Assembly: GCA_016192075.1 (NCBI GenBank)
Contig: JACPUU010000018.1
Span: 124,001-188,000, forward strand
Length of the DNA: 64,000 bases
Reading direction: 5' to 3'
Origin: Bacteroidota bacterium
GTDB taxonomy: Bacteria > Bacteroidota > Bacteroidia > Flavobacteriales_D > Crocinitomicaceae
The notes under the pieces were generated by a model, which made no database searches, had not been told where the DNA came from, and was given only the letters and a program-made list of their open reading frames with translations. Position numbers and translations under genes: made by a program. Of this stretch, positions 10,996 to 55,672 are shown in pieces (position 1 is the stretch's first letter; each line of letters starts with the position of its first letter).

Positions 10996-11150
10996 ACTCT
11001 AAATTTAATGTGCCTAAAATTAACCATTTTAACGGCATTTAATTACCTTGGATAATTATTTGATCAGCGCTTGTTTACAAAATCATTGATTCAGACAACC
11101 CATCCAAACCGGCGGTGTATCTTATAATACCCTCTAAAAAACTACTTCTT

Positions 11151-14100
11151 ATGAATTATTTTATCAAGTCCTTTTGGTTACTGCTAATCGGATTTTTTTC
11201 CATTCCGGCTTTTTCACAGCTTGATACCGATCATTATTTTCCGGCATTATTTGGCCGTGAAGACCAGGGTACACATTACCTGGTGTTGAGTACACACTCA
11301 TCCATTCCATTTGATGTAACAGTAACAGATGGTGCAGGAAACCTGATTACGACGCTGACCATTTCCAACGCAGCATCAACCACCTATATGTTTGGAAGCG
11401 GTACCACCAGCCCGTTACTGGTAACAGAACCCCAGCTCAATACACCCATGACCAGCAAGGGGCTTATTCTGAGCGGGCAGTATCCGTTTTATGCAACGGT
11501 GCGTGTTATTGCCGGGGCACAAGCTACCGCCATGACATCAAAAGGTCAGAAAGCCGCATTGGGAACTGACTTTCGTACCGGTCACCTTTTCCAAAACACC
11601 GGTGAATCATTCAGAAAAAGTAATGTTTTTGGAATTATGGCTACAGAAGACAATACCGTGGTTAATATCGACGATATCAGACCGGGTGTTATTTTCAGAG
11701 GTACCACACCATCCGGTTCACCCCTTACTTCACCTAACGTAACAGTGACCCTGAATGCCGGTGAAACGTATGTGGTTGCTGCTTTTCTGGATGAAGCCGG
11801 TGCCACCCAAAACGTAAATGGTGTAAACGGAACCCACGTAACATCTGACAAACCGATAGTTATGACCACCGGTTCATGGCTGGGCGGCAACCCCATTGTA
11901 TCTGGCTCACCATCAACCGGGCGCGATATCGGGACGGATCAGATAGCACCCATTGATGTAATCGGAGACGAATACGTAGTGATTAAAGGAGAGGGTATTG
12001 ACAACGAAAAAGTCATTGTTGTTGCCGCCTATGACAATACCGATGTAATGATTAACGGAAGCCCGATACCTGTTGCTACCATTGATGCCGGTGATTATTA
12101 CGTAATTGATGGTACTGCCTTTTCTGCGTTCGACAACTTATACCTGCAGGCCTCAAATGATGTTTATGTTTACCAGACTGCCAATGGCGGTGATGGCGCT
12201 ACCGATGACAACGAGCGCCAGAATGATATGATTTTTCTTCCTCCGGTGGGTTGTACCGGTAGTAAAAATGTAGTGCTTCCAAATGTAAACTGGGTTGGAA
12301 CAGCTTATATCAACATTATTGCCAATGCCGGGTCCAATGTTTATGTTAATGGTACTCCACTGGGTACCGGTGATGCGGTTACCGGCACAACCGGTTATGT
12401 GACCTACAAACTGACATCAGGCTACACCGGAGACGTTACCATTACCAGCGATGACCTTATTCGGGTAGCATTAATAAACCTGAGCGGAAACATTGGTGCC
12501 GCCTGTTATTTTTCAGGATTTACCAAGGATGTAGTTGTTCAGACACAAACCGTAAACGGCGACAACATTGCCCTGGAAGGGTGTATCCCGGCCAGCTTTA
12601 CCTTTAGCCTTGACAGCCCTTCAGATGACGACACCCAAATTTCATATACCGTTGCAGGTACTGCAAACAATGGGGTAGATTATACACACATTGATAATAC
12701 ACTTACCATTCCGGCAGGACAAACCTCTGCAACCGTTTTTGTTAACTCCGTTTCAGACGGTGTACCGGAAGGACAGGAATCTATCTACATCATTTATCAG
12801 CCCGATGCCTGTTCACCGGTAGATACTGCCTTTTTATTTATTGATGATGCGCAACCCATTGAATTTACCATTGACGGAACAGACCTGGATTGTTATAACA
12901 ATAACACCGGTGAAATTCTGGTAAATGCCACAGGTGGCTTTCCAGCCTATACCTACCATGTAACTACCAATGGCGGAACCGGAACGACCACGACGTATGC
13001 CTCCAATCCAATTACCGGACTTGCCGCCGGCACTTATTCTGTGCAGGTTTATGACAGTTACGGCTGCAAGGCAGACGCACTTGTAATTGGCGGTGTATTT
13101 GATGCCGACACCACCTTTTTGCCGGATGGAACCGGTGTGAGCTATACAACCACCATCAACATCAACGGGTTTGGAACCGGTGAGCTTTTGGACGACATGA
13201 GTCAGCTTCAGCAAATTTGTGCCACCATGGAACATTCATACCTGGGTGATTTGCAGATAAAAATTATTTCACCAAGCGGACAGCAGGTTATTCTGAAAGA
13301 ATTCTCAGGCGGTGGAAGTACAGATCTTGGAGAGCCCTTTGCATCAGGTCCTGTAGATGGCGCCAACAGTGATCTTACCGATCCCGGAATTGGATTTGAA
13401 TATTGCTGGAATGATGCACCCGTTTTTGGAACCATGGTTTCAGAAGCCGGAAACTACACACACACCATTCCTGCATCAACCGGCGGTACTTATACAGACA
13501 GTTATTTGCCACAGGGATCATACCAGTCTTTTGCAAACCTTAACGGCCTGCTGGGTTCAACACTGGACGGAGACTGGACGCTGGAAGTATCAGATCAGTT
13601 TGGCCTTGACAACGGGTATATTTTTAACTGGAATATCAGCCTGATGTCTGACCTTCCGGACACTTTGGTTACACTGAATGAACCAAACGGAATGACCCTT
13701 GACGGTTTTGTAACACAGGCACAATGCGGAACAAATGATGGTTCTATTAATCTTTCCGTAACCGGCGATTTTGGTCCGTTCACGTTTGCCTGGTCAAACG
13801 GAGCCATAACAGAAGATCTTTCTGGTATTGGTGCCGGAACATACGAAGTGTTTGTAACCGATGCCAACGGATGCGTTGATTCAGCTGAATTTATTCTGAA
13901 CAACATCAGTTCACTCAACATTACTTCTACGGTTACTGCAGTTACCTGTGCCGGCGGAACAAACGGTGCAATAGCTGTGACGACTTCAGGCGGAACAATG
14001 CCTTATACCTACAGCTGGTCAAACGGAGCCATAACCGAAGATTTAAATGCCATTTCTGCCGGAACGTATACCATTACGATCACCGATAATAACGGTTGTA

Positions 14101-17100
14101 TTTATTCAGAAGACATTGTTGTAAACACCTTACCATCCATGACTATTTCAGCCAGCAGTCTGACCAACGAAGCCTGCGGAACAGGTAATGGGTCTATCGA
14201 CATCAGCGTAACCGGCGGATCAGGATCATACGGTTACTCCTGGAGCAATGGTATGCTGACACAAGACATCAGTTCACTTACAGCCGGCTCTTATACAGTC
14301 ACCGTTACTGACGCATACAGCTGCACCGCGCAACAAACGTATTCACTGCTGAATGATGTTTCAAACTGCTCTATGTATTGTTACCTGGATGCTGTTGTAA
14401 ACACCATCACCGATGAAATTTGCGGAAACGGAACCGGAGCAATTGATATCAGCGTTGCAGATGCAACACAGCCATACACTGTTTCATGGAATACCGGTTC
14501 GACCAATGAAGATCTCACAAACCTGGCAGCAGGTACGTATACCATTACGATCAACGATGCCAATCAATGTGAACACATTGAATCATTCACCGTTGCCAAC
14601 GTAACTTCAGGTCTTGGCATAACAGCCAGCTCAATCAGTGACGAAAATTGCGGAGACGGACAAGGTGCAGTTGACATTACCGTTGGTGGAGGAACCCTTC
14701 CCTATACCTACGCCTGGTCAACCAGTGCCACAACGCAGGATATTAGCGCACTTACCGCCGGCAGTTATTCGGTGACCGTGACTGACGGAAACTCATGCCA
14801 GTTCACCCAATCATTTACCATTACCAACAACAGCGGTTCAATGGCCTACTCAACGGTTGTTACAAATGAATACTGTGACAACAATAACGGAGCCATTAAC
14901 CTGACGGTGACTGGAGCATCAGGCTCTATCAGCTACGATTGGTCAAACGGTGCAACCAGCCAGGATCTCACAGCATTGAATCCCGGAACATATACCTGCA
15001 CCATTACCGATCAGACAGGCTGCACATTAACCACGACCGCAATTACTGTTGGCAATAACCCGGGAACGCTTGAAATTCTCTCAACTACCATTACCAATGA
15101 AAATTGCCTGGACGGGCAGGGAGCCATTGACCTTTCAATACTGGGTGGTGCTACGCCTTATGTCTTCAACTGGAGCAACAGCGCTATCACAGAAGATCTT
15201 TCAGGATTAGCTGCCGGAACCTTTTCATGCACCATAACCGATGACAACGGATGCGCTGTTTCAACCGGTGCGCTCACCGTATGGAATTCACCGGGCACAC
15301 TGGCCCTGTCTACCGATTTTGTGACAGATGAACTTTGCGCAAACGCACAAGGAGCCATTTATGTTTCTACTACAGGGGGCACAGCACCGTATACGTATAG
15401 CTGGAACAATGGCTCTGTCAATGAAGACAACCTGGGTCTGGTAGCAGGAAATTATACCCTTACGGTAACCGATGCCAACGGATGCACCCTGAATCTGAGT
15501 GAGTCTGTCTCCAATTCAGCAGGTACACTTCAAATTGACAACGCTGTTTTAACGCATGAAAATTGCGGGAACGGAGGCGGAGCCATTAACCTGATGGTAA
15601 GCGGCGGAACAATGGCATACAACTATGACTGGTCAAGCGGTCAAACCAGCCAGGATATCAGCTCTCTTTCAGCAGGTACTTATTCCGTCACAGTTACTGA
15701 TGCCAACGGTTGTGAAGTCAGCGACTCCTATACCATCAACAACAATACCGGTACACTCAGCGTGTCATCGGTAAGTACGGCAGAAATATGCAGTGACGCC
15801 AGCGGATCCATTGATCTTACCGTTACCGGTGGTACCCCGGGGTACTCATACCTCTGGTCAAACAGCGCCTTGTCAGAAGACTTATCAGGCCTGAGCGCCG
15901 GAACGTATTCATGTGACGTTACAGATGCAATGGGATGTACATTCAGCACCGGACCTATTGTTATTGGTAACAATCCGGGCACACTGGCTGTAAGTCAAAC
16001 GGTGACCAATGAATCATGTGCCGCATCAAACGGTGCTGTTGATTTAACCGTAACTGGCGGAGACGGCTCATACAGCTATATCTGGTCAACATCAGCCACC
16101 AGCCAGGATATTTCAGGACTCACAGCCGGCAATTACACGTACACCGTTTCTGACGGAAATGGCTGCGAAATTTCAGGTGATGCGGACCTGATCAACACAT
16201 CCGGATCATTCATGGTTACGTATGCTGTGACAGACGAACTTTGTAATAACAACAGCGGTGCCATTGATCTTACCCTTGCGGGTGGAGCTTCACCAATTGT
16301 GTTTGCATGGAGCAACGGAGCCATTTCTGAAGACATTACCGCACTGAATGAAGGCACCTATTCCTGCACCCTAACAGACAACAACGGCTGCCAGGTAAAT
16401 ACCGGCAACCTGGTTGTATCAAACAACCCCGGATCACTTACCCTTGACAACATCGATGTTACCAATGAAAACTGTGGAAACGGCATTGGATCAATTGATA
16501 TTACCGTTTCTGGCGGAACAGCCCCGGTAACCTATCTCTGGAGCACCAGTGCAACAACGCAGGACATTCTGCTGCTGTCTGCCGGTAATTATTCCTGCAC
16601 GGTTACAGCGGCTGGTGGATGTACACTCGATTTAACCGCTACGGTTAATGATGATCCGGGCAATCTCCAGATTTTTGCACAAACGGTAACCAACGAATCA
16701 TGCGGCTCAGATAACGGAGCCATTGACATTACAATGGCCGGTGGAACACCAGGGTATACCTATGTCTGGTCAAACGGATCAACCACACAAGATATCAGTG
16801 CACTGAACGAAGGCACTTATTCACTCTTTGTAAGTGATGCCGGCGGATGCTCATTCAATACTGATTTCACCATCCTTAATGCGGGTGGAAACATGACCAT
16901 TTCAGGCGCTACCACAGGCAATGAAATTTGTGGTAATGCAGCCGGATCAATTGATATCACGTTAACTGACGGAACGGCCCCTTACCTGTTCAACTGGAGC
17001 AACGGTGCCATTTCTGAAGACATCAGCGGATTAACAGCCGGAACCTACACCGTAACCATTACCGATTTCAATTCCTGCACCACCAGCGGATCATTTACTG

Positions 17101-19757
17101 TTGGCAGTGATAACGGCACATTGAACCTGGTTTCATCGGTAGCAACAGATGAAAACTGCGGTGACGGACAAGGGGCTATTGACATTACCATTTCAGGCGG
17201 GTCTGCTCCAATTACCTATGACTGGTCAAACGGCAGCACCACACAGGATCTGAGCGGACTATCTGCCGGAACGTATTCTGTTTTTGTGGAAGACCAGTTT
17301 GGCTGCAACGTTTCTGCTACTGAAATTATTTCAAACATAACCGGTGGGCTTAACGTTGTTATTACTTCAGTGACAGACGAAAACTGTGGTGATGGAACGG
17401 GCGCTGTTGATATTACTGTAACCGGAGGATCGGGCCCTTACCTATACAACTGGAGCAATGGCGCAACGTCTGAAGATCTTACCGGGCTATCTGCCGGAAC
17501 CTATACCGTAACTGTGACGGACGCAAGCGGATGTTCTGTAACCATTTCAGCAACGGTAATCAACAACACCGGCACACTGGCTATTTCTAACGCCGTTGTG
17601 CAGGATGCCAATTGCCTGAGCCCTTCAGGATTCATTGATCTGACAGTCACTGGCGGAACACCGGGTTATTTCTATGCATGGAGTAACACTGCAACTTCAG
17701 AAGATATTTCAGGCCTCAGTGCCGGAACGTATACCTGCCAGATTACGGATGCAGCCGGTTGTATTTTGAATTATTCAGGAACAATCACCAACGGAAGCGG
17801 AGGAATTGCAGCAGATGCTGTTGTGGTAAACGCCATGTGCGGGAATGACAATGGGTCTATTGAAGTAACCGTAACCGGTGGCATCAGTCCGTTCACATTT
17901 AGCTGGACAGGTACTGCACCAAGCACCTGCTGTGAATATACACTTGAAATGCAGGACCTTTTTGGTGACGGATGGAATGGCGGATCACTGGAAGTTTTTG
18001 TAAACGGATCATCTATTGGTAATTTCAGCGCAGCCGGAACTGGTAGTACAGAAATTATTCCGGTCTGTGACGGAGACGCACTGGAGCTTGTTTACAGCGC
18101 CGGTGCCTGGGAAGAAGAGAATATTTATACCCTTTATGATTCACAAGGCAATGCACTGTTTACAGATGGTCCTAACCCAACAACGGGATCAGTTTACACA
18201 GGTACTGCAGCATGTTCAGGCGGAAGCCCGAATACAACCGCTGTTTATAACCTGGCCGCCGGAACCTATGGTTTAACCATTACCGATGATGTAGGTTGTG
18301 CTTTGACCGAATCATACACTATTCAGGCCGTTGCTTCTGATCTGCAACTTAACCTCACCAGTCTTACAGATGATCAGTGCCTGCAAGGTACCGGACAAAT
18401 TGTATACACCATTGCTGGCGGCACCGCACCGTTTGATCCAACACTCAACGGTATACCGGATGGCGGAACACCAGGGCAGTTCTCTAACCTGAACGCTGGT
18501 AATTATGAATTGGTGGTGTGGGATGACATGGGTTGTACCGATACGATGCAGCTGGTTGTAAACAACACCACAACATTTACCACCACTGTGGTTGCAATCG
18601 TTGACGAAACCTGCGGACAGGCCAATGGCTCAATTGACATTGACATTACCGGTGCCGGAACCCTGAACATAAACTGGAGCAACGGAGAAACCACCGAGGA
18701 CATTTCAGGACTTGTTGCCGGTACGTATACCGTCGATCTTTTTGATTTCAGCACGTTCTGCCAGGATCAGCAAACCTATATCATTAATAACATCTCTGAC
18801 ATAACCGTTACCGGTGTTGCCACAAATGAAAACTGCGGAGACGGCGCCGGATCAATTGACCTCACCGTTACCGGCAGCACTGACTTAAGTTTTGACTGGA
18901 GCAACGGAGCTATTACCGAAGATTTAACTGCGTTGACAGCCGGCTCTTACACCTGCACGGTGACCAATAATACAACAGGATGCCAGGTAGTTGTAAGCTA
19001 TGACATTCTTAACGTAACAACAGGGCTTGCCGCAAACGGATTTGCCAACGATGATTTCTGTGGAAACGGAAACGGTTCAATAGACATTACCGTAGGTGGC
19101 GGATCAGGCTTTTACAGTTTTGACTGGAGCAACGGCGAAACTACAGAAGACCTCGCTGCCGTGGGTCAGGGAGACTACTCAGTAACCATAACCGATTTGA
19201 ATGATGGCTGCCAGATGACACTTGATTTTACCGTTGGAAACTTTGCAACGTATGGTGTGAGTGGTGTGGTAACTGATGCTGCCTGTGCAAGCTGCACAGA
19301 AGGAGCTATTGATGTAACCATCAATGAAGGATTCCCTGACGGGCCGTATGTTTTCTCGTGGAGCAACGGTGCAACTACAGAAGATGTTTCAGGCTTAACC
19401 CCGGGCACCTACACCGTAACGGTGACCAGTAATTCAGGCTGCTCAACCATGGTTACCTTTGTGGTTGGCAACTCCAATTCTGTATCAACCGGTGAAATTT
19501 CAACCATCACCACCGTTGATCTTTATCCAAATCCGGCACGTGACCAGTTTGTCATTTCTTACCGGTTTACCAGCGGAGCGCCGGTGGTATTGATTATGAC
19601 AAACGCTGTAGGTGAAACGGTTATGAACACAACCCTTCAGGCCACTCACGGGCAGGAATCAATTGGCATTGATCACCTGGCGCGCGGTGTCTATTTTGTG
19701 ACGGTGACTGATGGCGCTGCCACACAAACCATTAAACTGATTGTTGCGCGTAAATAA
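11151..19757 (+). CDS. Giant T9SS-secreted adhesin: IgGFc-binding-like N-domain, Calx-beta-like, ~25 SprB repeats, embedded P-domain, type A sorting domain
   Basis: Signal peptide MNYFIKSFWLLLIGFFSIPAFSQ (start moved from 11115); repeat consensus TNEnCGngnGsIdItVtGGt.pY.Y.WSnGatteDisgLsaGtYtvtVtDanGC; C-terminal VDLYPNPARDQFVI...GVYFVTVTDGAATQTIKLIVARK. Confidence 0.92.
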   Translation: MNYFIKSFWLLLIGFFSIPAFSQLDTDHYFPALFGREDQGTHYLVLSTHSSIPFDVTVTDGAGNLITTLTISNAASTTYMFGSGTTSPLLVTEPQLNTPMTSKGLILSGQYPFYATVRVIAGAQATAMTSKGQKAALGTDFRTGHLFQNTGESFRKSNVFGIMATEDNTVVNIDDIRPGVIFRGTTPSGSPLTSPNVTVTLNAGETYVVAAFLDEAGATQNVNGVNGTHVTSDKPIVMTTGSWLGGNPIVSGSPSTGRDIGTDQIAPIDVIGDEYVVIKGEGIDNEKVIVVAAYDNTDVMINGSPIPVATIDAGDYYVIDGTAFSAFDNLYLQASNDVYVYQTANGGDGATDDNERQNDMIFLPPVGCTGSKNVVLPNVNWVGTAYINIIANAGSNVYVNGTPLGTGDAVTGTTGYVTYKLTSGYTGDVTITSDDLIRVALINLSGNIGAACYFSGFTKDVVVQTQTVNGDNIALEGCIPASFTFSLDSPSDDDTQISYTVAGTANNGVDYTHIDNTLTIPAGQTSATVFVNSVSDGVPEGQESIYIIYQPDACSPVDTAFLFIDDAQPIEFTIDGTDLDCYNNNTGEILVNATGGFPAYTYHVTTNGGTGTTTTYASNPITGLAAGTYSVQVYDSYGCKADALVIGGVFDADTTFLPDGTGVSYTTTININGFGTGELLDDMSQLQQICATMEHSYLGDLQIKIISPSGQQVILKEFSGGGSTDLGEPFASGPVDGANSDLTDPGIGFEYCWNDAPVFGTMVSEAGNYTHTIPASTGGTYTDSYLPQGSYQSFANLNGLLGSTLDGDWTLEVSDQFGLDNGYIFNWNISLMSDLPDTLVTLNEPNGMTLDGFVTQAQCGTNDGSINLSVTGDFGPFTFAWSNGAITEDLSGIGAGTYEVFVTDANGCVDSAEFILNNISSLNITSTVTAVTCAGGTNGAIAVTTSGGTMPYTYSWSNGAITEDLNAISAGTYTITITDNNGCIYSEDIVVNTLPSMTISASSLTNEACGTGNGSIDISVTGGSGSYGYSWSNGMLTQDISSLTAGSYTVTVTDAYSCTAQQTYSLLNDVSNCSMYCYLDAVVNTITDEICGNGTGAIDISVADATQPYTVSWNTGSTNEDLTNLAAGTYTITINDANQCEHIESFTVANVTSGLGITASSISDENCGDGQGAVDITVGGGTLPYTYAWSTSATTQDISALTAGSYSVTVTDGNSCQFTQSFTITNNSGSMAYSTVVTNEYCDNNNGAINLTVTGASGSISYDWSNGATSQDLTALNPGTYTCTITDQTGCTLTTTAITVGNNPGTLEILSTTITNENCLDGQGAIDLSILGGATPYVFNWSNSAITEDLSGLAAGTFSCTITDDNGCAVSTGALTVWNSPGTLALSTDFVTDELCANAQGAIYVSTTGGTAPYTYSWNNGSVNEDNLGLVAGNYTLTVTDANGCTLNLSESVSNSAGTLQIDNAVLTHENCGNGGGAINLMVSGGTMAYNYDWSSGQTSQDISSLSAGTYSVTVTDANGCEVSDSYTINNNTGTLSVSSVSTAEICSDASGSIDLTVTGGTPGYSYLWSNSALSEDLSGLSAGTYSCDVTDAMGCTFSTGPIVIGNNPGTLAVSQTVTNESCAASNGAVDLTVTGGDGSYSYIWSTSATSQDISGLTAGNYTYTVSDGNGCEISGDADLINTSGSFMVTYAVTDELCNNNSGAIDLTLAGGASPIVFAWSNGAISEDITALNEGTYSCTLTDNNGCQVNTGNLVVSNNPGSLTLDNIDVTNENCGNGIGSIDITVSGGTAPVTYLWSTSATTQDILLLSAGNYSCTVTAAGGCTLDLTATVNDDPGNLQIFAQTVTNESCGSDNGAIDITMAGGTPGYTYVWSNGSTTQDISALNEGTYSLFVSDAGGCSFNTDFTILNAGGNMTISGATTGNEICGNAAGSIDITLTDGTAPYLFNWSNGAISEDISGLTAGTYTVTITDFNSCTTSGSFTVGSDNGTLNLVSSVATDENCGDGQGAIDITISGGSAPITYDWSNGSTTQDLSGLSAGTYSVFVEDQFGCNVSATEIISNITGGLNVVITSVTDENCGDGTGAVDITVTGGSGPYLYNWSNGATSEDLTGLSAGTYTVTVTDASGCSVTISATVINNTGTLAISNAVVQDANCLSPSGFIDLTVTGGTPGYFYAWSNTATSEDISGLSAGTYTCQITDAAGCILNYSGTITNGSGGIAADAVVVNAMCGNDNGSIEVTVTGGISPFTFSWTGTAPSTCCEYTLEMQDLFGDGWNGGSLEVFVNGSSIGNFSAAGTGSTEIIPVCDGDALELVYSAGAWEEENIYTLYDSQGNALFTDGPNPTTGSVYTGTAACSGGSPNTTAVYNLAAGTYGLTITDDVGCALTESYTIQAVASDLQLNLTSLTDDQCLQGTGQIVYTIAGGTAPFDPTLNGIPDGGTPGQFSNLNAGNYELVVWDDMGCTDTMQLVVNNTTTFTTTVVAIVDETCGQANGSIDIDITGAGTLNINWSNGETTEDISGLVAGTYTVDLFDFSTFCQDQQTYIINNISDITVTGVATNENCGDGAGSIDLTVTGSTDLSFDWSNGAITEDLTALTAGSYTCTVTNNTTGCQVVVSYDILNVTTGLAANGFANDDFCGNGNGSIDITVGGGSGFYSFDWSNGETTEDLAAVGQGDYSVTITDLNDGCQMTLDFTVGNFATYGVSGVVTDAACASCTEGAIDVTINEGFPDGPYVFSWSNGATTEDVSGLTPGTYTVTVTSNSGCSTMVTFVVGNSNSVSTGEISTITTVDLYPNPARDQFVISYRFTSGAPVVLIMTNAVGETVMNTTLQATHGQESIGIDHLARGVYFVTVTDGAATQTIKLIVARK

Positions 19758-23263: not shown

Positions 23264-24520
23264 TTATTTTTTCAATTTAAACGCCGCTTTTACTTTGTCT
23301 ACATAGTCCAGTTTTTCCCAGGTAAACAATTCAACTTTCAGCGTTTTCTTTTTGCCGTCAGGCATGGTGAATGTTTTGGTAACCGTTTCATTTTTACGGC
23401 CCATGTGACCATAAGCAGCCGTTTCACTATACATTGGCGTACGCAGTTTTAAACGCTGTTCAATGAAGTAAGGGCGCATGTCAAACACTTTCTCTACAAT
23501 TTTTGCAATTTCACCGTCTGACATTTTCACTTTGGCTGTGCCGTATGTATTGATGTAAATACCCATTGGTTTTGCAACACCAATAGCGTATGAAACCTGC
23601 ACCAGCACTTCAGCACAAATACCGGCAGCTACCAGGTTTTTTGCAATGTGACGGGTAGCATAGGCAGCTGAGCGGTCAACTTTTGAAGGATCTTTACCAG
23701 AGAATGCACCACCACCATGAGCTCCTTTTCCACCATAGGTATCTACAATGATTTTTCGCCCGGTTAAACCGGTATCTCCATGCGGACCACCAATTACAAA
23801 TTTTCCGGTAGGGTTAATGTGGTACGCAATTTTGTCATTAAACAATTTGGCGTATTTCGGATAGTTCTTTTTAACCCGTGGAATCAGAATTTCAATGATG
23901 TCTTTTTTGATTTTTGCCAGCATTTTTGGCTCTGAATCAAAATCATCGTGCTGGGTTGAAACAACAATGGCATCAATGCGCACCGGTTCATTTTTATCAT
24001 TATACTCCAGCGTTACCTGTGATTTTGCATCAGGACGCAGGTATTTAATTTGTTTGTTTTCTCTTCTCAACGCAGCAAGCTCAAGCAAAATAGCATGTGC
24101 AAGATCAAGCGCCAATGGCATGTAATTAGGTGTTTCGTTGGTTGCATAACCAAACATCATTCCCTGATCACCTGCTCCCTGATCTTCTTTTTTCTTACGC
24201 TCAACACCCTGATTAATGTCTGCAGACTGTTCGTGAATAGCAGAAAGTACACCGCATGAATTGGCTTCAAACATGTATTCTGATTTGGTATATCCTATTT
24301 TACGAATTACACCGCGGGCAATTTCCTGAACATCCAGATACGCTTTTGATTTTACCTCACCGGCAAGAACTACCTGACCGGTTGTTACAAGTGTTTCACA
24401 GGCAACTTTGCTGTCCGGGTCAAATGCAAGAAAGTTATCAATTAGTGCGTCTGAAATCTGATCCGCAACTTTGTCCGGATGCCCTTCAGAAACTGATTCA
24501 GAAGTGAATAAATATGACAT
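23264..24520 (-). CDS. metK: S-adenosylmethionine synthase
   Basis: [54 protein letters not shown]. Confidence 0.97.
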
Positions 24521-24746: not shown

Positions 24747-24814
24747 TAAACCGGTTAATATGCATGCATAGCAATTGAAACGGTAGACCAAGTTGCCTTT
24801 TTTATCGTCAAACC
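24747..24814 (+). promoter_or_regulatory. Conserved upstream palindrome/hairpin element, copy A
   Basis: TATGCATGCATA palindrome (24759-24770) followed at fixed spacing by TAGAC, CTTTTT and ATCGTC; matches 54072-54137. Confidence 0.6.
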
Positions 24815-24974
24815 TAATAAAATAAACGATTTCAGAATGGTTAATAACTTGACCCCTGATTTAAATTGTCGTAACTTCTCACCGAACCAATGCTCATATT
24901 ATCGACTACACTGCTACCCCAACCGATTGAATAAAATACCCTTGCGGATAGTATGAGCTCAAAACCAATTCACT

Positions 24975-27900
24975 ATGAAAACGCTCAGACTTTTAACCGT
25001 TTTTCTGGTGTTATTTCATTCAACCTTGTTTTCACAAATTGGAAAAGACGGCAACGTACTAATTACCAACACCCAGGTTGTAAATGAATACACCGCTTTG
25101 TCACAGGATGCGAATCCGGGTGACATGACACTGACCGTTCTGAATTCAGGATTAAACACCAACGGAAACTTCAGCGGTCCGCTTGCTGCCGGTGACCTCA
25201 TCATGATTATACAGATGCAGGGAGCCAGTATCCAGGGAAATATCAATGACATTACCTGGGGACAAATTCTCAATTACAACAACTGCGGTCTTTTTGAATT
25301 TAAAGAAGTAGCTGCTGTACCCAACGGAACACATGTTGACCTTACCTGCCCGGTTCAAAACACTTATTCACAAAGCGGGCATGTTCAGGTTATCCGCGTT
25401 CCGCGCTACAATACATTAACTGTTGATGGAGGAACAATAACCGCGCTGAACTGGGATGGTACCCGCGGCGGCGTTGTTGCCATTGAAGTAAATGGTTTGA
25501 CTACCCTGATTAACGGCGGTGAAATTGATGTTACCGGCCAGGGATTCAGAGGTGGTTTACTCGACAATTCCAGCAGTTACGCTGCGCTGGGATTTGCCTC
25601 ATCCAGCCAGAATGATGGTGGTGAAAAAGGAGAAAGTATTGCCGGCTTTGGAACAGATTATTCACCCCTGGGCGGTCGTTATGGCCGCGGTGCTCCGGCA
25701 AACGGTGGTGGTGGTGGTAACGCTCACAATGCCGGTGGCGGCGGTGGTGCCAACGCAGGCAGTGAATTGCCCTGGAACGGTTTAGGAAATCCGAATCTTT
25801 CAACCATTGGCTGGGCCAGCGCCTGGGACCTGGAAAGCCCTGGATTCTCAGGAAATCTTTCATCCGGCGGCGGACGCGGCGGGTACACCTTTTCAATGGG
25901 AAATCAAAACGCATTGATGCTTGGACCTTCACAAGGAGCATGGGGCGGTGACGCACGCAGAAATACCGGCGGTGTCGGCGGAAGACCTTTAGATTATACA
26001 ACAGGAAGATTATTTCTCGGTGGTGGTGGCGGTGCCGGCGACGGTAACAACGGAGCCGGTACTAACGGAGCGTCCGGAGGCGGTATGGTTTATCTGATCT
26101 CTTACAACGATGTCGTTGGAAATGGTCAGATTGTCGCTTCCGGGCAAACTGCTCCGGTGACTCCTCCGGCTGGTAATGATGCACCGGGCGGTGGTGGTGG
26201 TGGTGGTACCATTGTAATTAACGCCAGCGGAACCATTTCATCAACCCTTTCTTTAATTGCAAACGGTGGTGACGGTGGTGACCAGTTTATTTTAACCACT
26301 GAAGCAGAAGGACCCGGTGGCGGCGGCGGTGGTGGCTATATCGCTTATTCAGGCGGTACTCCTGTAACCAATGTAACCGGCGGTGGTAACGGTACAACCA
26401 ATTCACTGGGGGTAACTGAATTTACACCAAACGGTGCCACTATGGGCGGAGCCGGAATGATTTCGTTTCCGGTCATTGTTGACTATACCATGGATGTTTT
26501 TGCTCAAAACGATACCGTTTGTATTGGCAATTCAACAACGCTTACCGCAAATGCTGAAAACCCGGCTTACAACAATACCATTCAGTGGTTTGATGCTCCT
26601 TATGGCGGCAACCTGCTGGCCACAGGATCATCTTATACAACTCCCGGTTTGTTTGTAACCACTACTTATTACCTGAAAGTTTGTCCAAGTTTGTCGGTTG
26701 ACAGTGTAACTGTAATTGTTGAAAATAACCCGGTTTTTGCTGTGGTAACAGACTCTACAAGCTGCTTTAACGGTACTGACGGATCAGCACAAACCAACTC
26801 ATTCGGGTCATACTTATATGCCTGGAGCAACGGCCAAACCGGGTTAATTGCAACCGGGTTATCTGCCGGCAATTATTCCGTAATAGCATCTACCGCTTCA
26901 GGATGTACAACCACCCAGAATTTTACCATTGCGCAGCCAAACCCAATGGCAATTAATTTCAGCGGAACACCTGCCCTTTGTTTTAATGATCCAAGCGGAA
27001 CGCTTACCGCAGCTGCCTCAGGCGGCACAGGTTCATACGCTTACAATTGGGTTTCACCAGCCGCTTTTGGGCCAACAATCACCAATGTTCCAAACGGCAA
27101 TTACACCGTTAATGTGTATGATGCAAACGGTTGTTTTGCTACCGCAAATGGTTCTGTTACAAGTCCGCTCCCGCTCATTCCTTCAGTAGTTTCACTCAAC
27201 AACGTAAATTGTAACGGTGGAGCAGACGGAAATGTGCAGGTTGGTATTACCGGAGGTACTGCCCCTTATGCGATTGACTGGTTAACACTAACCAACGACT
27301 CTACATTTATGGACAACCTCTCAGCCGGAAATTATGTGGCTGAAATTACAGATGATCATAATTGTACGGCAAGTGTGGTAGCTACGATTTCAGAACCCGG
27401 ACCTTTCACCGCTGACCTGGTTATTATTCAAAACGAAACCTGTTCAGACGGAAATGGACTTGCCGTAACTTCTACAAGCGGCGGTATTGGTACCTTAACC
27501 TTTACCTGGACACCCAATGTATCTACAACCAATGTAGCCATGAATCTCAGCGCCGGACCAATCCAGGTTATCGTGCAGGATGAAAACGGATGTATTGTTA
27601 ATGACGCTGAAACCATTGTAAATTTTGCAACCGGAACAGTTAACCTGGCATCATTGAGCCCTGTCACCTGCGAAAACGGAGCAAACGGAAGTGCAACGGT
27701 GAGTATGACAGGTGGTACTGCACCATTCAACTATAACTGGTCATGCACCTGCCCGAACAGTGACACCGCTAACGGCCTCACTGCAGGCAACTACTCAGTC
27801 ACTGTAACCGATTATTACGGCTGCGTTGATTCAATGGCGGTTGTAATTGATGAATTACCTGCACTGGTGGTAAGTACAACAACGGTAAATGAGCCGCTCT

Positions 27901-29591
27901 GTTATGGAAACAGCGATGGTTCAGCAGAGGTTCAGGCAAATGGCGGAACAGGCCCTTATTTTTTCTCCTGGAATACTATGCCTGCACAATTTAACGCCCT
28001 TGCAACAAACCTTGGTGCCGGCAATTACGCCGTCATTGTTACCGACGCCAACAACTGCCAGGACACCTTGGTTATAACCGTGAATCAGCCAACCCAATTG
28101 AACGTAGATGCCACCGTACTCAGCAACATTATTTGTTTTGGTGATAGCGCCGGTGTTGCAGAAGCAACTGTAAACGGAGGTACACAGCCCTACACCTATG
28201 CCTGGGATAATGGTACAACCAATGATACCATTTCAAACCTGCCGTCAGGCCATTACTATGTCAACGTCACAGACCTCAATGGTTGTACGCAAATGGATAC
28301 CATTGAAATTCTGGAATACCAGAATGTTACCGCAGAGCTGATTGCTGATCCGGTATTTTGCCCGGGTGACCTCGTAACCTTTTACGTTTTGACAAACGGA
28401 ATGAATAACCTGTATGACTACAACTGGTTTGTAAATGGTAACCTTCAGTCTACCCAAAATACTTACACCATACCTGTTTATGCTACTGCTGAAATAAGTT
28501 TTGAGCTGGTGCATGCAGACAATTGCCCAACCCTGGCAGACTCTGTAACCGTGAGCCCTATTCAACTTGATCAGGCCATATTGGATGCCACCGGAACACA
28601 GGATACCATTTGTTTAGGTACTGGCGGTTTGGTGCAGGCATTGATTACAGACTGGGCCTACATTACTGCTGTTACCTGGCCTTCACTTAACATTACCGGA
28701 ACCGGACCACACCTGGTAAAACCAATGGACAACAACACCTACTATGTGGTAACGGTAGAAAACATGTGTCATCAAATGATCCAGGACTCAGTTAAACTGA
28801 ATGTGTTTATGCCGCCTATGGCCAACATGTATGCGTTTGATACTGAAGGATGCGATGAGGTGAATGCCACATTTGGTTTTGATTATGAAGCCTATGATTA
28901 TACACTGACAGATGCAAACTGGAACCTCTTTTTTGACCATTACAACGGCCTTGCACCGGTAGTACATTTTGAATATTCAGCTGACCTGCTGGCGCAGCTT
29001 GAACTAACCTTTTCCAACGGCTGTACTTTCCATTATTCAGACACAATCCGCATTGATGTATTTCCAAGTCCTGAAGCCAATTTCTACTGGAATCCCGATC
29101 CGGCACTTCAAAATGAATTGACTGAATTTGTAGATATTTCACACGGTAACCCAATTGCGTGGGAATGGTACACTGAAAACCAGTTTTTCTCAACCGAAGA
29201 ACGGCCAACATGGGTTTACAATGAACAGGGTAATTTCGTAGTTACACAGATTATTACCAATGAGTTTGGATGCACTGATACCTCAACCCAGGTAGTTGAA
29301 GTCATTGGAGATTTCCTGGTATTTGTCCCTAATGCATTTACCCCGGACGGCAACGATAAAAACAATGTTTTTAAACCCGTTTTTCAAAATGTAAAATCAG
29401 ACAATTATGAATTTCTGATCTTCAACCGCTGGGGTGAAAAAATCTTTGAAGCACACAATCTTGATGCCGAATGGGATGGTAACTATGGCGGTGACCTGGT
29501 TCCCGATGACGTATATGTCTGGGTAATCCGTGTTACCGATAACCGCGACCTGAAACACGAATACACCGGTCACGTTGCACTGCTTAAATAA
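24975..29591 (+). CDS. T9SS-secreted adhesin: Gly-rich N-domain, 7 SprB repeats, PKD-like region, gliding-motility (CHU_C/type B) C-terminal domain
   Basis: Signal peptide; Gly-rich 25.5-26.5 kb; C-terminus FVPNAFTPDGNDKNNVFKP...FLIFNRWGEKIFE...WDGNYGGDLVPDDVYVWVIRVTD. Confidence 0.93.
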   Translation: MKTLRLLTVFLVLFHSTLFSQIGKDGNVLITNTQVVNEYTALSQDANPGDMTLTVLNSGLNTNGNFSGPLAAGDLIMIIQMQGASIQGNINDITWGQILNYNNCGLFEFKEVAAVPNGTHVDLTCPVQNTYSQSGHVQVIRVPRYNTLTVDGGTITALNWDGTRGGVVAIEVNGLTTLINGGEIDVTGQGFRGGLLDNSSSYAALGFASSSQNDGGEKGESIAGFGTDYSPLGGRYGRGAPANGGGGGNAHNAGGGGGANAGSELPWNGLGNPNLSTIGWASAWDLESPGFSGNLSSGGGRGGYTFSMGNQNALMLGPSQGAWGGDARRNTGGVGGRPLDYTTGRLFLGGGGGAGDGNNGAGTNGASGGGMVYLISYNDVVGNGQIVASGQTAPVTPPAGNDAPGGGGGGGTIVINASGTISSTLSLIANGGDGGDQFILTTEAEGPGGGGGGGYIAYSGGTPVTNVTGGGNGTTNSLGVTEFTPNGATMGGAGMISFPVIVDYTMDVFAQNDTVCIGNSTTLTANAENPAYNNTIQWFDAPYGGNLLATGSSYTTPGLFVTTTYYLKVCPSLSVDSVTVIVENNPVFAVVTDSTSCFNGTDGSAQTNSFGSYLYAWSNGQTGLIATGLSAGNYSVIASTASGCTTTQNFTIAQPNPMAINFSGTPALCFNDPSGTLTAAASGGTGSYAYNWVSPAAFGPTITNVPNGNYTVNVYDANGCFATANGSVTSPLPLIPSVVSLNNVNCNGGADGNVQVGITGGTAPYAIDWLTLTNDSTFMDNLSAGNYVAEITDDHNCTASVVATISEPGPFTADLVIIQNETCSDGNGLAVTSTSGGIGTLTFTWTPNVSTTNVAMNLSAGPIQVIVQDENGCIVNDAETIVNFATGTVNLASLSPVTCENGANGSATVSMTGGTAPFNYNWSCTCPNSDTANGLTAGNYSVTVTDYYGCVDSMAVVIDELPALVVSTTTVNEPLCYGNSDGSAEVQANGGTGPYFFSWNTMPAQFNALATNLGAGNYAVIVTDANNCQDTLVITVNQPTQLNVDATVLSNIICFGDSAGVAEATVNGGTQPYTYAWDNGTTNDTISNLPSGHYYVNVTDLNGCTQMDTIEILEYQNVTAELIADPVFCPGDLVTFYVLTNGMNNLYDYNWFVNGNLQSTQNTYTIPVYATAEISFELVHADNCPTLADSVTVSPIQLDQAILDATGTQDTICLGTGGLVQALITDWAYITAVTWPSLNITGTGPHLVKPMDNNTYYVVTVENMCHQMIQDSVKLNVFMPPMANMYAFDTEGCDEVNATFGFDYEAYDYTLTDANWNLFFDHYNGLAPVVHFEYSADLLAQLELTFSNGCTFHYSDTIRIDVFPSPEANFYWNPDPALQNELTEFVDISHGNPIAWEWYTENQFFSTEERPTWVYNEQGNFVVTQIITNEFGCTDTSTQVVEVIGDFLVFVPNAFTPDGNDKNNVFKPVFQNVKSDNYEFLIFNRWGEKIFEAHNLDAEWDGNYGGDLVPDDVYVWVIRVTDNRDLKHEYTGHVALLK

Positions 29592-29716: not shown

Positions 29717-31198
29717 ATGAAAAACCTGTTCGTATACAGTGCGCTGGTATTTGTTACCTGGGCCTGTAATTCAACCGCTGAAAACCATACCGGTCCTGAT
29801 GCCCTTTCAGAAAATCAACAGGCCAGTCAGGCTGACACGGTATTGATTTGCCAGGCAACCACAGATGGCGTGGACGACCAGTTTTATGTTTTTTCTGAAC
29901 AAGAACAAAGCATGACCGATTCCATTACAGAAGTACACATTGTACCGTTGATTTCAGATGCAGAAAATCTGGATTCTTCTACAATCTGTGATTTTATGTT
30001 TGGAATTGTATCAACTGATTTTGCATTGTATTATGATATGTTTGCGGATTTTGACGGAACAATCAGTGTATTTTACGACGCCAGCCGCACCAGGCTGGTT
30101 AGCCGGTTTCAGCTGGTTAACCGGCAGCCAAACGGACCTGTAAATGTTTTTTTGCCGGACGGTGAACGGGTCATCTCGCGCGTTTACAAAAATGGTACCT
30201 GCACTGCTTCATTACTTGATTTGTATGCCATTGACTGGACTTTTAACCCTTCTGAATCAGCCCTGGAAATAGAAAAATTTTCAGCCTACAAAAAAACAGA
30301 TGCAGCCGGAAATACAACCATCGAACTGGGTGAAAGTATGCATCCGAATTCGGGTGAATTTAAAAACGACCTGTATGAATTGATTCAAAAACCGGTTTTT
30401 GAAAATCCGTTTACCCTTAATGGACAAGCCTTTACCGGCACCATTCTGGGATATTACCCGCCAAACCCGTTATTGCCCCAGCTGTATTTTGAACTCCCTT
30501 TTAATGCCGGAAAACTCAATGATACGGTGCGTCTCTACAACTACTGGGGCGAACTGGAACTGGAAGAGCGGTTTGAAAACGGGGTTTTAACGGAGACCAT
30601 TTACGAAATGGAATATTCTGAAACAGAAGGGATGGCCAAGCCGGTCATTTACCTGTACCCTGAGTCAGACGCGCTGGTAAACGTAAAACTTAGCCTCAAG
30701 GGTAAAATGACCCACAGTTATCCCACCTACCCGGCTGAAGGTTGGAATGTAAAAGCAACGCAGAACGGAACGCTTTACGATGAAGGTGGAAAAGAATATT
30801 ATGCCCTTTTCTGGGAAGGTGTTTCGCAAACCCCGTTTACCTATTCTGAAGGATTTGTGGTAAAGGGGAATGAAACTGCCCTTTTTCTTGAAAATGCACT
30901 TGATGTGATAGGGCTTACCCGACGTGAAGCCAACGAATTTATTATGTATTGGCTACCGCAAATGGAAAACAACCCGTACAACCTGATTCATTTCTCAACC
31001 GCCGAATATGCTGACATGGCTGAATTAACCGTTACGCCCAAACCAGAATCACTGCTCCGGGTTATGATGGTATGGTCTCCCCTTGAAAAACCGGTTGAAA
31101 TTCCACAACAAAACCTCTACGACCTGCATGTTGAACGCATGGGATTTACCGTTGTGGAATGGGGCGGAAAAAGACAGGAATTTTACCAGGAGTTTTAG
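29717..31198 (+). CDS. Lipoprotein with conserved uncharacterised C-terminal domain
   Basis: Lipobox TWAC; C-terminal KPVIYLYPE...GWNVKATQNGTLYDEGGKEYYALFWEG...REANEFIMYWLPQMENNPYNLI...GFTVVEWGG. Confidence 0.75.
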   Translation: MKNLFVYSALVFVTWACNSTAENHTGPDALSENQQASQADTVLICQATTDGVDDQFYVFSEQEQSMTDSITEVHIVPLISDAENLDSSTICDFMFGIVSTDFALYYDMFADFDGTISVFYDASRTRLVSRFQLVNRQPNGPVNVFLPDGERVISRVYKNGTCTASLLDLYAIDWTFNPSESALEIEKFSAYKKTDAAGNTTIELGESMHPNSGEFKNDLYELIQKPVFENPFTLNGQAFTGTILGYYPPNPLLPQLYFELPFNAGKLNDTVRLYNYWGELELEERFENGVLTETIYEMEYSETEGMAKPVIYLYPESDALVNVKLSLKGKMTHSYPTYPAEGWNVKATQNGTLYDEGGKEYYALFWEGVSQTPFTYSEGFVVKGNETALFLENALDVIGLTRREANEFIMYWLPQMENNPYNLIHFSTAEYADMAELTVTPKPESLLRVMMVWSPLEKPVEIPQQNLYDLHVERMGFTVVEWGGKRQEFYQEF

Positions 31199-47520: not shown

Positions 47521-48372
47521 GTGCAAGTTTTCAACACAGCAGCCCGCCTGGCGGACTTTATCAAACAACTCAAAACTGAAAATACAGCTGTAAAAATAGG
47601 TTTTGTACCCACCATGGGCGCCCTGCATGAAGGGCACATGAAACTCATTAAGCAGGCCAAAGCCAATGCTGATGTGGTTTTAGCCTCTATTTTTGTGAAC
47701 CCAACCCAATTTAACGACCCTAAAGACCTGGAGCGCTACCCGCGTACGCCGCAGGCCGACCTGGATCTTTTAAAGCAGCACGGCTGTGACGGTGTCTTTA
47801 TGCCGGCTGTTGCTGATATCTACCCAAACGGTACTGCTGAAAACTATGTATTAGACTTTCAAGGCCTTGACCGGGTTATGGAAGGCGCCTTCAGACCGGG
47901 TCATTTCAACGGGGTGGCCCAGGTTGTCGAACGGTTTTTCAGAATTGTGAATCCTGACCTGGCCTTTTTTGGACGAAAAGACTTTCAGCAGGTAGCCATT
48001 ATCAAACACCTGGTGCGCGTAAAACACCTGCCGGTAGAAATTGTGGTGGTTGACACTGCCAGAAGTGTGGACGGGTTGGCTCTCAGCTCAAGAAATACCT
48101 TGCTGTCAGCTGACCAGAAAAAAGATGCACTGATCATTTTTAAAACGCTTTCAAAGGCTGTTGAACTGGCCAGGACCGAAAAAGATGCCAAAAAAGTGAA
48201 AGAACAACTTATTTCTTTTTTCAATACCGGATCACTGCGGCTTGAGTACCTTGAAATTGCAGATGATAGCACCCTGCAGCCCGTTGACACCCTTAAAGCC
48301 GGCTGTACCTGCTGCATTGCAGCCTTTTGCGGAACGGTCAGGCTAATTGATAACATGCCGCTTAACGGGTAA
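47521..48372 (+). CDS. panC: Pantothenate synthetase (GTG start)
   Basis: VPTMGALHEGHMKLI, SIFVNPTQFN, FFGRKDFQQVAII, SSRNTLLS. Confidence 0.97.
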   Translation: MQVFNTAARLADFIKQLKTENTAVKIGFVPTMGALHEGHMKLIKQAKANADVVLASIFVNPTQFNDPKDLERYPRTPQADLDLLKQHGCDGVFMPAVADIYPNGTAENYVLDFQGLDRVMEGAFRPGHFNGVAQVVERFFRIVNPDLAFFGRKDFQQVAIIKHLVRVKHLPVEIVVVDTARSVDGLALSSRNTLLSADQKKDALIIFKTLSKAVELARTEKDAKKVKEQLISFFNTGSLRLEYLEIADDSTLQPVDTLKAGCTCCIAAFCGTVRLIDNMPLNG

Positions 48373-48445
48373 CTGCAATTTTCAAGGCCTTATGCCCACA
48401 AGGTTTCCCTTCTTACATGTATCTTCAAACACAAAATAGCTTTCT

Positions 48446-50281
48446 TTGAGAAACCTGTGGATACTATATTGCCTTTTTCACGCGGCTGAACTCTTTTCAT
48501 TTGAAACCCGTTTTGCAGATAGCCTCTACCAGGAGGCCCGCACCCTGAATGGCAGAAAAGGTCTTGAATTTATGCTGGATCATTTCTATCCGGTTTTTAC
48601 GCGGAATTATCAGGACGGTACTACCTGGACTCAACAATCACTTCATTATTCAATGCTTTCTGCTGATCAGCACCTGATTGGCCGAAGTTATTTAAACCTG
48701 GGCATGAGCCATTACATGCGGGGTGACTATCCGGCTTGTTTGTTAAACTATCAGAAAGCCCTTGACCTTTTTGAAACGGTCAACGATCAGTCTTATATAG
48801 GAAGAACCTGCAATGAATTTTCAGTTTACTGGCGCAAACAAAAACAGTTTGACACCGGGCTTGAATACCTTGACCGGTCACTCAGCGTCTGCTCTGCCTG
48901 CCATGATACTGCCTGCGTGGAGACATCACTTAACAACCGGGCGGTGATTTATGAAATGATGGGCCGTTATGACCTGGCGCTTACTTATTATCGAAAAGCC
49001 GAAGAGGTAGCTGCAAGCATTCACGATTCACTTGGGCAAGCCTATACCTATATGGATGCGGCTCAATGTCACCGGTTAAATGGCAGCCTTGACTCGGCTG
49101 AAATGCTGATTGACCGTTCCATTGAAATTTTAACGCAGCTGGGAAACCTGCAGGGTGTTGGTTTAAACCTGGTGAACAAAGCTGCCCTGCTGGTTGAAAA
49201 AAATGAATTGAACAGCGCCGTGAGCGTTTATGAAGAATGCATCAGGCTGGCAGAGCGCATTAAGTATACCGATTTACTTAAAACCGCACATTATCAATTG
49301 GGGCAGACATACGCGCAGCAGAAAAATTTTGAAAAATCATTCGTGCATATTGAACGCAGCTATTTTCTGAGAGATAGTCTTTTGAACGAAGATAAATTAA
49401 AAGCACTTTCAGACATGGAGGTGAAGTATGAGACTGAAAAAATTGAAAAAAATCTGTTGGCCGAGCAGCAGGAGCATGTAAAAACAGAACTGCAGGTTGC
49501 AACACGTACCAACTGGCTCATTGGTTTGGGTGGATTTTCAGCTACTGCCCTTTTCCTGGGATTATTTCTCTACCAGCGCACATCACGCCTGGCACAAGCT
49601 GAAAAAGACCGTGCCGTTATTGCGGAGCGTGAAAAAAGCATTCAGGCCGTTTTTGACGCCACCGAAAAAGAGCGCAGCCGCATATCACGTGAACTGCACG
49701 ACGGCATTGGGCAACAGATGAGTGGCCTTAAACTGGCCTGGCAAAACCTGGCTGCCTCATCGGGTAACCAACTAACCGGCAACGAAAAAAACAAGCTGCA
49801 AACCCTTTCAAAAATTCTGGATGAAACGGCCGCAGAAGTACGCACACTCTCACACCAGATGATGCCTAAAGTACTCGAGAGTTTTGGCCTGACACCGGCA
49901 TTGGAAGATATGCTGGAAAAAGCCCTGCAGCACACACCGGTTAAATACCAGTTTGAAACTTATAATTTCAATGAACGGCTCCCTCAAAAAACAGAGCTCG
50001 CCCTTTTCAGAATTGCGCAGGAACTAATCAGCAACGTGATCAAACATGCCGCCGCCGATTTTGTATCAGTGCAACTTTTCAAAAATCAAAATCAACTGAT
50101 ACTGATTGTAGAAGACAATGGCAAAGGAATGCCTGAAACGCTGACGGCTGAAGGTCACGGTTTATTAAACATCAAATCAAGATTGAGCACCATTCAGGGG
50201 CAGGTAAATTTTGAACGCGGCCAAAATTCCGGAACTACAGTAACCGTAAGAGTTGTATTGGAGGCAGGTGACCTTGTCTGA
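48446..50281 (+). CDS. TPR-containing sensor histidine kinase (HisKA_3/NarX-DesK type; TTG start in track)
   Basis: TPR array, one TM, ERSRISRELHDGIGQQMSGLKLAWQNL, DNGKGMP...GHGLLNIKSR. Confidence 0.88.
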   Translation: MRNLWILYCLFHAAELFSFETRFADSLYQEARTLNGRKGLEFMLDHFYPVFTRNYQDGTTWTQQSLHYSMLSADQHLIGRSYLNLGMSHYMRGDYPACLLNYQKALDLFETVNDQSYIGRTCNEFSVYWRKQKQFDTGLEYLDRSLSVCSACHDTACVETSLNNRAVIYEMMGRYDLALTYYRKAEEVAASIHDSLGQAYTYMDAAQCHRLNGSLDSAEMLIDRSIEILTQLGNLQGVGLNLVNKAALLVEKNELNSAVSVYEECIRLAERIKYTDLLKTAHYQLGQTYAQQKNFEKSFVHIERSYFLRDSLLNEDKLKALSDMEVKYETEKIEKNLLAEQQEHVKTELQVATRTNWLIGLGGFSATALFLGLFLYQRTSRLAQAEKDRAVIAEREKSIQAVFDATEKERSRISRELHDGIGQQMSGLKLAWQNLAASSGNQLTGNEKNKLQTLSKILDETAAEVRTLSHQMMPKVLESFGLTPALEDMLEKALQHTPVKYQFETYNFNERLPQKTELALFRIAQELISNVIKHAAADFVSVQLFKNQNQLILIVEDNGKGMPETLTAEGHGLLNIKSRLSTIQGQVNFERGQNSGTTVTVRVVLEAGDLV

Positions 50282-50432
50282 TATACTGGTCCTGTATTGA
50301 CTAAAAAGTTTGCCTGGATTCGTATACATCAACAATCGGTTAGCACAAATTTTGCAAACGGAAAATGCCGCGCTGGTAAAAAACCAGGGTTGAACTATGT
50401 TCTGGATCAGAATCAGTTGACCGTTTATCGTT

Positions 50433-50440
50433 TATCTTTG
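50433..50440 (+). promoter_or_regulatory. Candidate -7 element TATCTTTG
   Basis: Matches TAnnTTTG 20 nt before response-regulator ATG. Confidence 0.3.
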
Positions 50441-50460
50441 AACTGACAGATTGTTATTTC

Positions 50461-51117
50461 ATGGGTAAAAAGCGTGTTCTTCTGGTTGATGATCACCAGT
50501 TGATTATTGATGGTTTGCGTGGTTTTATTGAAGCCGCTCCGGCGTATGCCGTGGTAGGTGAAGCCAACACCGGTACAGAGGCCGTAAGGCTTGCTGCTGT
50601 GCTAAACCCTGACGTTATTCTGATGGATATTGAAATGCCTGAAATGAGTGGCATTCAGGCCTGCCAGGAGATTAAAAAAACAATGCCTGATGTCAAAATC
50701 ATCATTGTATCCATGCATCATGAAAAACAACTTATCAAAAAATTAATTGACCTGGGCGCAGATGGTTACCTGCTCAAAAATTCCCAGCAGCAAGAGGTGA
50801 TGGATGCCCTTGAAAAAGTGCTCCGCAACCAATCGTATTTTTCGCAGGATGTGACCCTGTCACTGCTTGATAAATCAAACTCCAAAAACGCGTCGACCCA
50901 TTCTTCAGCTGTTTTACATGTTTCTCAACTGACGGAACGTGAAATTGAAATTCTGAAACTGGTAGCACAGGGCATGACAAATAAAGAAATTGGTGATTCA
51001 CTGAACATTTCACACCGCACAGTAGATACGCACCGCACCAACCTGATGAAAAAACTGGAGGTAACGAATGTGGCAGGCTTAATTCGTTTTGCGTTTAAGA
51101 ACGGGTTAATTCAATAA
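50461..51117 (+). CDS. NarL/LuxR-family response regulator
   Basis: VLLVDDHQLIIDGL, DVILMDIEMPEMSG, LTEREIEILKLVAQGMTNKEIGDSLNISHRTVDTHRTNLMKKL. Confidence 0.95.
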   Translation: MGKKRVLLVDDHQLIIDGLRGFIEAAPAYAVVGEANTGTEAVRLAAVLNPDVILMDIEMPEMSGIQACQEIKKTMPDVKIIIVSMHHEKQLIKKLIDLGADGYLLKNSQQQEVMDALEKVLRNQSYFSQDVTLSLLDKSNSKNASTHSSAVLHVSQLTEREIEILKLVAQGMTNKEIGDSLNISHRTVDTHRTNLMKKLEVTNVAGLIRFAFKNGLIQ

Positions 51118-54071: not shown

Positions 54072-54137
54072 TGAACCGTTTTATATGCGCGCATAGCTTT
54101 AAATTGCTTAGACGAAACTCGCTTTTTAATCGTCTAA
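54072..54137 (+). promoter_or_regulatory. Conserved upstream palindrome/hairpin element, copy B
   Basis: TATGCGCGCATA palindrome (54084-54095) and TTAGACGA/TCGTCTAA 8-bp hairpin (54108-54137), same spacing as copy A. Confidence 0.6.
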
Positions 54138-54228
54138 ATCTTTTATTACTGCCTTTCACCGTCGAAAAAAAGTAGGCCGGTACCTATCACCTGTGTACCT
54201 TATTGGTGAACCATTTAAACTTACTCTT

Positions 54229-55662: not shown

Positions 55663-55672
55663 GCTATTTTGG

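Follow-up and report, generated by a model that had tools for sequence, protein, structure and literature searches.

Two T9SS adhesin genes, gene A and gene B, of the window (the whole 64,000-nucleotide stretch of DNA that was analysed) were found to be preceded by a shared element which, with a probability of about 0.6, is a composite promoter in which a fatty-acid operator of the MarR type precedes an adhesin-specific TNGAC-N15-WTCGT element. The two genes appear to be ancestral neighbours placed under one composite transcription-control region, in which the palindrome TTAnTATGCnnGCATAnTAA would be the operator of a family-wide MarR-type beta-oxidation regulator. At the metabolic genes, this regulator most likely represses transcription until a fatty acid or an acyl-CoA is bound. 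At the adhesin genes, the operator would precede, by about 10 bp, a second conserved block, most likely an ECF-sigma promoter, followed by the presence of a putative housekeeping promoter 90-91 bp downstream of the palindrome in most of the orthologues. From this composite layout, adhesin output would be expected to track both fatty-acid status and an ECF-sigma signal. The conservation of the element, its positions, the shared motif and the gene contexts are apparent from the sequence, and the features of the window were as follows.

23264-24520, minus strand: metK, the ancestral upstream neighbour of gene A
24747-24814: copy A of the element, upstream of gene A, with the core TATGCATGCATA at 24759-24770
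24749-24758, plus strand: the 5′ flank AACCGGTTAA of copy A, from alignments
24755-24774, plus strand: the predicted operator of copy A, 20-mer TTAATATGCATGCATAGCAA, ranked first in the 64-kb window by the beta-oxidation matrix
24784-24809, plus strand: the second block TAGAC-N15-ATCGTC of copy A, a candidate promoter of the ECF-sigma type (GAC-N17-CGTC), or else a bipartite factor site
24849-24877, plus strand: the putative housekeeping promoter of gene A, TTGAC-N18-TAACTT (−33/−7), 90 bp from the palindrome start
24975-29591, plus strand: gene A, a T9SS type-B adhesin of 1538 aa with five SprB repeats and CHU_C
47521-51117, plus strand: panC, a TPR-HisKA_3 histidine kinase (48446-50281) and a NarL/GerE response regulator (50461-51117), assigned by domains
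54072-54137: copy B of the element, upstream of gene B, with the core TATGCGCGCATA at 54084-54095
54080-54099, plus strand: the predicted operator of copy B, 20-mer TTTATATGCGCGCATAGCTT, ranked second in the window by the beta-oxidation matrix
54109-54134, plus strand: the second block TAGAC-N15-ATCGTC of copy B
54173-54201, plus strand: the degenerate housekeeping promoter of gene B (TAGGCC ... TACCTT), 89 bp from the palindrome start
54229-54891, plus strand: gene B, a secreted protein of 220 aa with one SprB repeat
54946-56926, minus strand: rnc and fabF, the ancestral downstream neighbours of A-B

The two copies were found at the places given by the sequence-only reading and were confirmed to align without gaps, with 45 nt from the palindrome start to ATCGTC in copy A and copy B alike. 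Both copies were present in divergent intergenic regions, between metK (−) and gene A (+) and between lysS (−) and gene B (+), and genes A and B were, as that reading had held, the only SprB-repeat genes of the window besides the giant adhesin (11115-19757). When up to three mismatches were allowed, TATGCNNGCATAGC-N11-TAGAC was matched twice in the window versus 0.05 matches expected from shuffles. The longer pattern including ATCGTC, at the same limit, was also matched twice in the whole 4.65-Mb genome, at copies A and B, and its reversed control was found to have no match in the 4.65-Mb genome. The two-copy match cannot be due to chance. No match of the exact pattern was found in viral contigs. 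In the alignments (genomes are given by G numbers, and own refers to the genome of the window), the AACCGTTTAA-type 5′ flank of copy A was common to own B, G139 and G008, and the variant AACGGTTTAA/AACGGTTTAG was found in G004_A/G025_A.

The orthologues of gene A were 45-48% identical over about 990 aa, and those of gene B in G004, G025 and G138 were 38-42% identical. In the product of gene A, TIGR04131 (T9SS type B sorting domain) scored above its cut-off, and NCBIfam NF047640, for an AgmC-like N-terminal region, scored below its own. In sister genera, A and B were found as neighbours flanked by metK and rnc-fabF, being adjacent in G004 and G025, and the panC-kinase-regulator cluster adjoined metK-A-B. 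G138 was found to contain B only, G139 and G008 contained A only, and the genomes of genus g12 that were viewed contained neither gene beside rnc. With rnc as the anchor, the ancestral order was panC - kinase - NarL-type regulator - metK - (DedA) - A - B - rnc - fabF, of which individual genomes may miss some members. The cluster is split in the window into metK-A (23-30 kb), panC-kinase-regulator (47.5-51 kb) and B-rnc-fabF (54-57 kb). A 493-aa protein without a match in Pfam and NCBIfam was present at 29717-31198, and its C-terminal 180 residues were 48-58% identical to Clostridia-labelled and Bacteroidota metagenome proteins.

Conservation of the palindrome in orthologous promoters was borne out, as it was found upstream of all nine A/B orthologues examined (own A and B, G139, G008, G004 A and B, G025 A and B, and G138 B), in a diverged form in G008. 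The sequence between the palindrome and the promoter was not conserved, with 24-33% identity in the 91-bp cases. Among 240 family genomes, one further near-perfect copy of the element was found; it belongs to G139, lies between metK and rnc-fabF, and precedes the start of a SprB/CHU_C gene by about 180 nt. The search with a sequence model built from the three copies (R1; own A, own B and G139) added G008 and G004, and also G169 and G164, where the genes are non-orthologous T9SS genes. An R1 match in a trpG/pabA-like region of G105 and most of the R1 matches below 20 bits look like chance.

The palindrome was not confined to adhesins. Its tie to them, as first proposed, holds at the A/B orthologues, and the same site was also found at beta-oxidation genes across the family, the 20-mer TTAnTATGCnnGCATAnTAA being shared by A/B, the marR-led beta-oxidation operon and the fadE promoters. 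A model of the palindrome plus flanks (R2), run on 40 genomes, was found to match directly upstream of a FadE-type acyl-CoA dehydrogenase in 11 genomes, upstream of a nitronate monooxygenase with a hotdog-like protein in G151 and G106, and upstream of T9SS genes in G146 and G169, followed by lower-scoring matches at etfB/etfBA in G025 and at marR in own, G022, G008 and G140. The marR gene heads an operon of 3-hydroxyacyl-CoA dehydrogenase/enoyl-CoA hydratase, thiolase, a GNAT-like protein and acyl-CoA dehydrogenase in G022 and in own, where it is located on contig C20 (L199:7631-8077, minus strand). The exact TATGCnnGCATA was conserved upstream of marR in own, G022, G008 and G140, and the MarR orthologue of G066, a locus chosen without use of the motif, was found to contain a two-mismatch site 55 nt upstream. 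In nearly every promoter of fadE and marR, the end of the 20-mer was 11-13 nt before a TAnnTTTG-like box, TAnnTTTG being the sigma-A −7 box of flavobacteria (PMC9723704), and it covered the −33 region at the marR operon (own and others) and at fadE (11 genomes). Because of this placement, MarR would most likely act as a repressor of the metabolic genes.

A metabolic matrix was made of 17 sites, none of which came from own genome or from adhesins. Among the 64,000 positions of the window, it ranked copy A first (24.4 bits) and copy B second (15.5 bits), and it gave the own marR site a score of 24.3. Against 60 Markov windows, A was above all of them and B was exceeded by three of the 60 window maxima. 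With R2 the own marR site alone was not significant (14.8 bits, E 0.14). As the single-site E-values at the metabolic genes spanned 3e-4 to more than 0.1, it is the repeated occurrence at the same genes that carries the claim, and the gene contexts were classified after the matches were seen. No published description of this fatty-acid degradation regulon was found in the literature searched. Two other occurrences of the palindrome were observed. In G011, a near-perfect palindrome (L196:4667-4686, 26 bits) was located outside promoters, in a gap between genes that converge, and a terminator-like inverted repeat follows it. The same palindrome was also found 55-82 nt upstream of DUF7793-type small proteins in G139, G025 and G089 (L204:4492-4961, with a Pfam match, and similar ORFs at L213:6543-7020 and L211:6945-7438), an unexplained further member of the regulon.

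The palindrome may instead be bound, at the metabolic and the adhesin genes alike, by another conserved regulator that is not MarR, as MarR binding was deduced from the autoregulatory position only. This was considered unlikely, since the site was found directly upstream of marR in four of the five loci and in a degenerate form in the fifth, which is the usual mark of autoregulation. We infer MarR as the binder, and likewise its ligand and the sigma factor; the adhesins may either rise or fall with fatty acids.

Six promoters (own A, own B, G139_A, G008_A, G169 and G164) were found to contain the second block, TNGAC-N15-WTCG, with a fixed internal spacing and 24-25 nt downstream of the palindrome start. 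On the plus strand of the window, TNGAC-N15-WTCG was present at A and B only. In all DNA examined, only five loci (own A, own B, G139 A, G169 and G164) combined it with a near-perfect palindrome 24-25 nt upstream, and all five were those of T9SS-type genes. The same module is carried by non-orthologous T9SS genes of another genus (g19). The block was absent at the metabolic sites and in G004, G025, G138 and G146. Five of the six second blocks contained GAC-N17-CGT, with CGC in G169, and the −35 was GAC, not AAC. The block is probably an adhesin-specific ECF-sigma promoter of the form GAC-N17-CGTC; in Flavobacterium psychrophilum, T9SS genes are transcribed from a motif of the ECF type with a CGT −10 box (PMC9723704).

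The palindrome start was followed by TTGAC-N18/19-TAACTT or TAAATT after 90 bp in own A and after 91 bp in G139_A, G025_A, G025_B and G138_B, and the own B promoter was aligned with CTTGACC...TAAATT of G138_B. The distance to the promoter was 80 bp in G008_A and 21 bp in G004_B, and no clear housekeeping promoter was found after the palindrome in G004_A. The repressor position, with the operator over the core promoter, was found at fadE/marR and not at A/B, where the operator precedes TTGAC by 90 bp and TNGAC by about 10 bp. Counting against the composite promoter are the placement of the adhesin operator, far upstream of the housekeeping promoter and not over it, and the absence of the second block in G004, G025, G138 and G146.

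The B promoters of own (54132-54175), G025 (L117) and G138 (L116) were also observed to contain TNGTCGAAAA repeats, of which one directly precedes the −33 box (palindrome +74/+76) and another lies 27-49 bp ahead of the palindrome; the B promoter of G004 did not have them. As a lead only, the repeats resemble gttttgtcgaaaaaaat, the site of PorX reported at sigP of P. gingivalis (PMC8265659). In the adhesin promoters of L113 and L095 and in L207, a CTAAACCGTTTAAT-like motif was observed, which abuts the palindrome in the A/B genes and stands apart from it in the T9SS promoters of genus g19; it is possibly an independent site.

Three T9SS genes of genus g19 were found to carry two palindromes each, spaced by 91 bp in G169 (22.0 and 21.8 bits, both full sites), by 102 bp in G164 (15.0 and 15.0 bits, both imperfect) and by 91 bp in G146 (19.7 and a weak 6.7 bits). 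These spacings (91, 102, 91), together with the palindrome-TTGAC spacings of 90, 91, 91, 91, 91 and 80, form a small sample that may point to a constraint of helical phase, for example looping; the 21 bp of G004_B and the promoter of G004_A, which was not clear, are contrary cases. A tentative and rather doubtful extension is that the adhesin promoters would be phased two-point switches, in which a MarR-type fatty-acid sensor would loop the DNA from a site about 91 bp (± one helical turn) away from the promoter or a second operator, and lipid catabolism would thereby gate adhesion directly.

Alternatively, the palindrome, read as a 7-2-7 inverted repeat, which is the geometry of the NarL family, may be bound by the NarL-type regulator of the window (50461-51117). 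Orthologues of this regulator with at least 63% identity were found in only six of the 240 family genomes, five of which contained A and/or B. The order panC-kinase-regulator-metK-A was seen directly in G139, whose response regulator was 69% and whose histidine kinase was 47% identical to that of the window. In the loci viewed outside own genome, such orthologues were found beside metK. However, the one-contig genome G004 keeps near-perfect A/B palindromes with a best regulator match of 42% identity, G022 contained the regulator with no A/B beside rnc or beside the regulator, and the palindrome was present before fadE or marR in many genomes without an orthologue. MarR is preferred because the palindrome persists without the NarL-type regulator, at A/B in G004 and at fadE in many genomes, and binding of the palindrome by the latter is improbable. 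The orthologue was found in five of the six A/B genomes, not in G004, and because of this link to the adhesins the NarL-type regulator would be a good candidate for a reader of the second block or of the TNGTCGAA repeats in the B promoters.

The sequence-only reading had associated the element with SprB/CHU_C genes in general, and this did not hold. Own genome was found to contain at least 36 SprB-repeat genes, and among the 36 upstream regions taken only those of A and B carried the element; it was found in none of the other 34, where the best upstream score was 6.7 versus 23.8 and 15.4 for A and B. As A and B are ancestral neighbours, they may be tandem duplicates, and the two copies may merely be a gene-linked promoter duplication that is not under selection. 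This is very improbable, since the palindrome was kept across genera while the flanks diverged, and it recurs at unrelated genes. Between the dimer site and the RNA stem that were first offered as alternatives, the selected palindromic dimer site was retained, with its central two bases free, and the stem or hairpin was not. A transcribed RNA leader with hairpins is scarcely credible, even with the perfect 8-bp inverted repeat TTAGACGA/TCGTCTAA of copy B, since the fold energies equalled those of shuffles (z-scores 0.09, −0.06 and −0.14), no pair of the proposed stems was changed on both sides among five sequences, an Rfam search of the window gave no match, and the predicted transcription starts are downstream of the palindrome.

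Gliding bacteria choose among dozens of T9SS adhesins, of which 36 SprB genes were examined here. For this choice the shared site, if true, would name a regulator (a single MarR gene), its probable signal, namely fatty acids or acyl-CoA, and the exact bases to mutate, and the fatty-acid degradation regulon of this family would be described. The site suggests that one signal may switch both the use of fat and adhesion at the cell surface.

The system resembles that of lipid-sensing MarR regulators such as FabT, in that the protein is a winged-helix MarR member (Pfam PF01047), its own promoter has an inverted repeat across the −33 region, and lipid-metabolism genes share this repeat. It differs from the FabT type in the best NCBIfam equivalog score, which was 43.9 bits versus a cut-off of 240, and in the presence of adhesin genes in the regulon. 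The FabT site also differs from the operator TTAnTATGCnnGCATAnTAA. Like the FadR and PsrA regulons, it would place fadE, 3-hydroxyacyl-CoA dehydrogenase, thiolase and etfBA under one regulator, whereas the protein family and the operator are other than those of the MarR system. FadR belongs to the GntR or TetR family and PsrA to the TetR family, and we know of no T9SS adhesins in their regulons. The TNGAC-N15-WTCGT element resembles the CGT −10 of T9SS-related genes in the SigP/PorXY system of Porphyromonas gingivalis and in the SM6 ECF promoters of F. psychrophilum (PMC9723704), in which the sprB operon was reported to contain sigma-54 and SM5 promoters (PMC9723704). The SigP/PorXY and SM6 systems serve mainly secretion-machine genes, whereas the genes found here are cargo adhesins with an adjoining metabolic operator.
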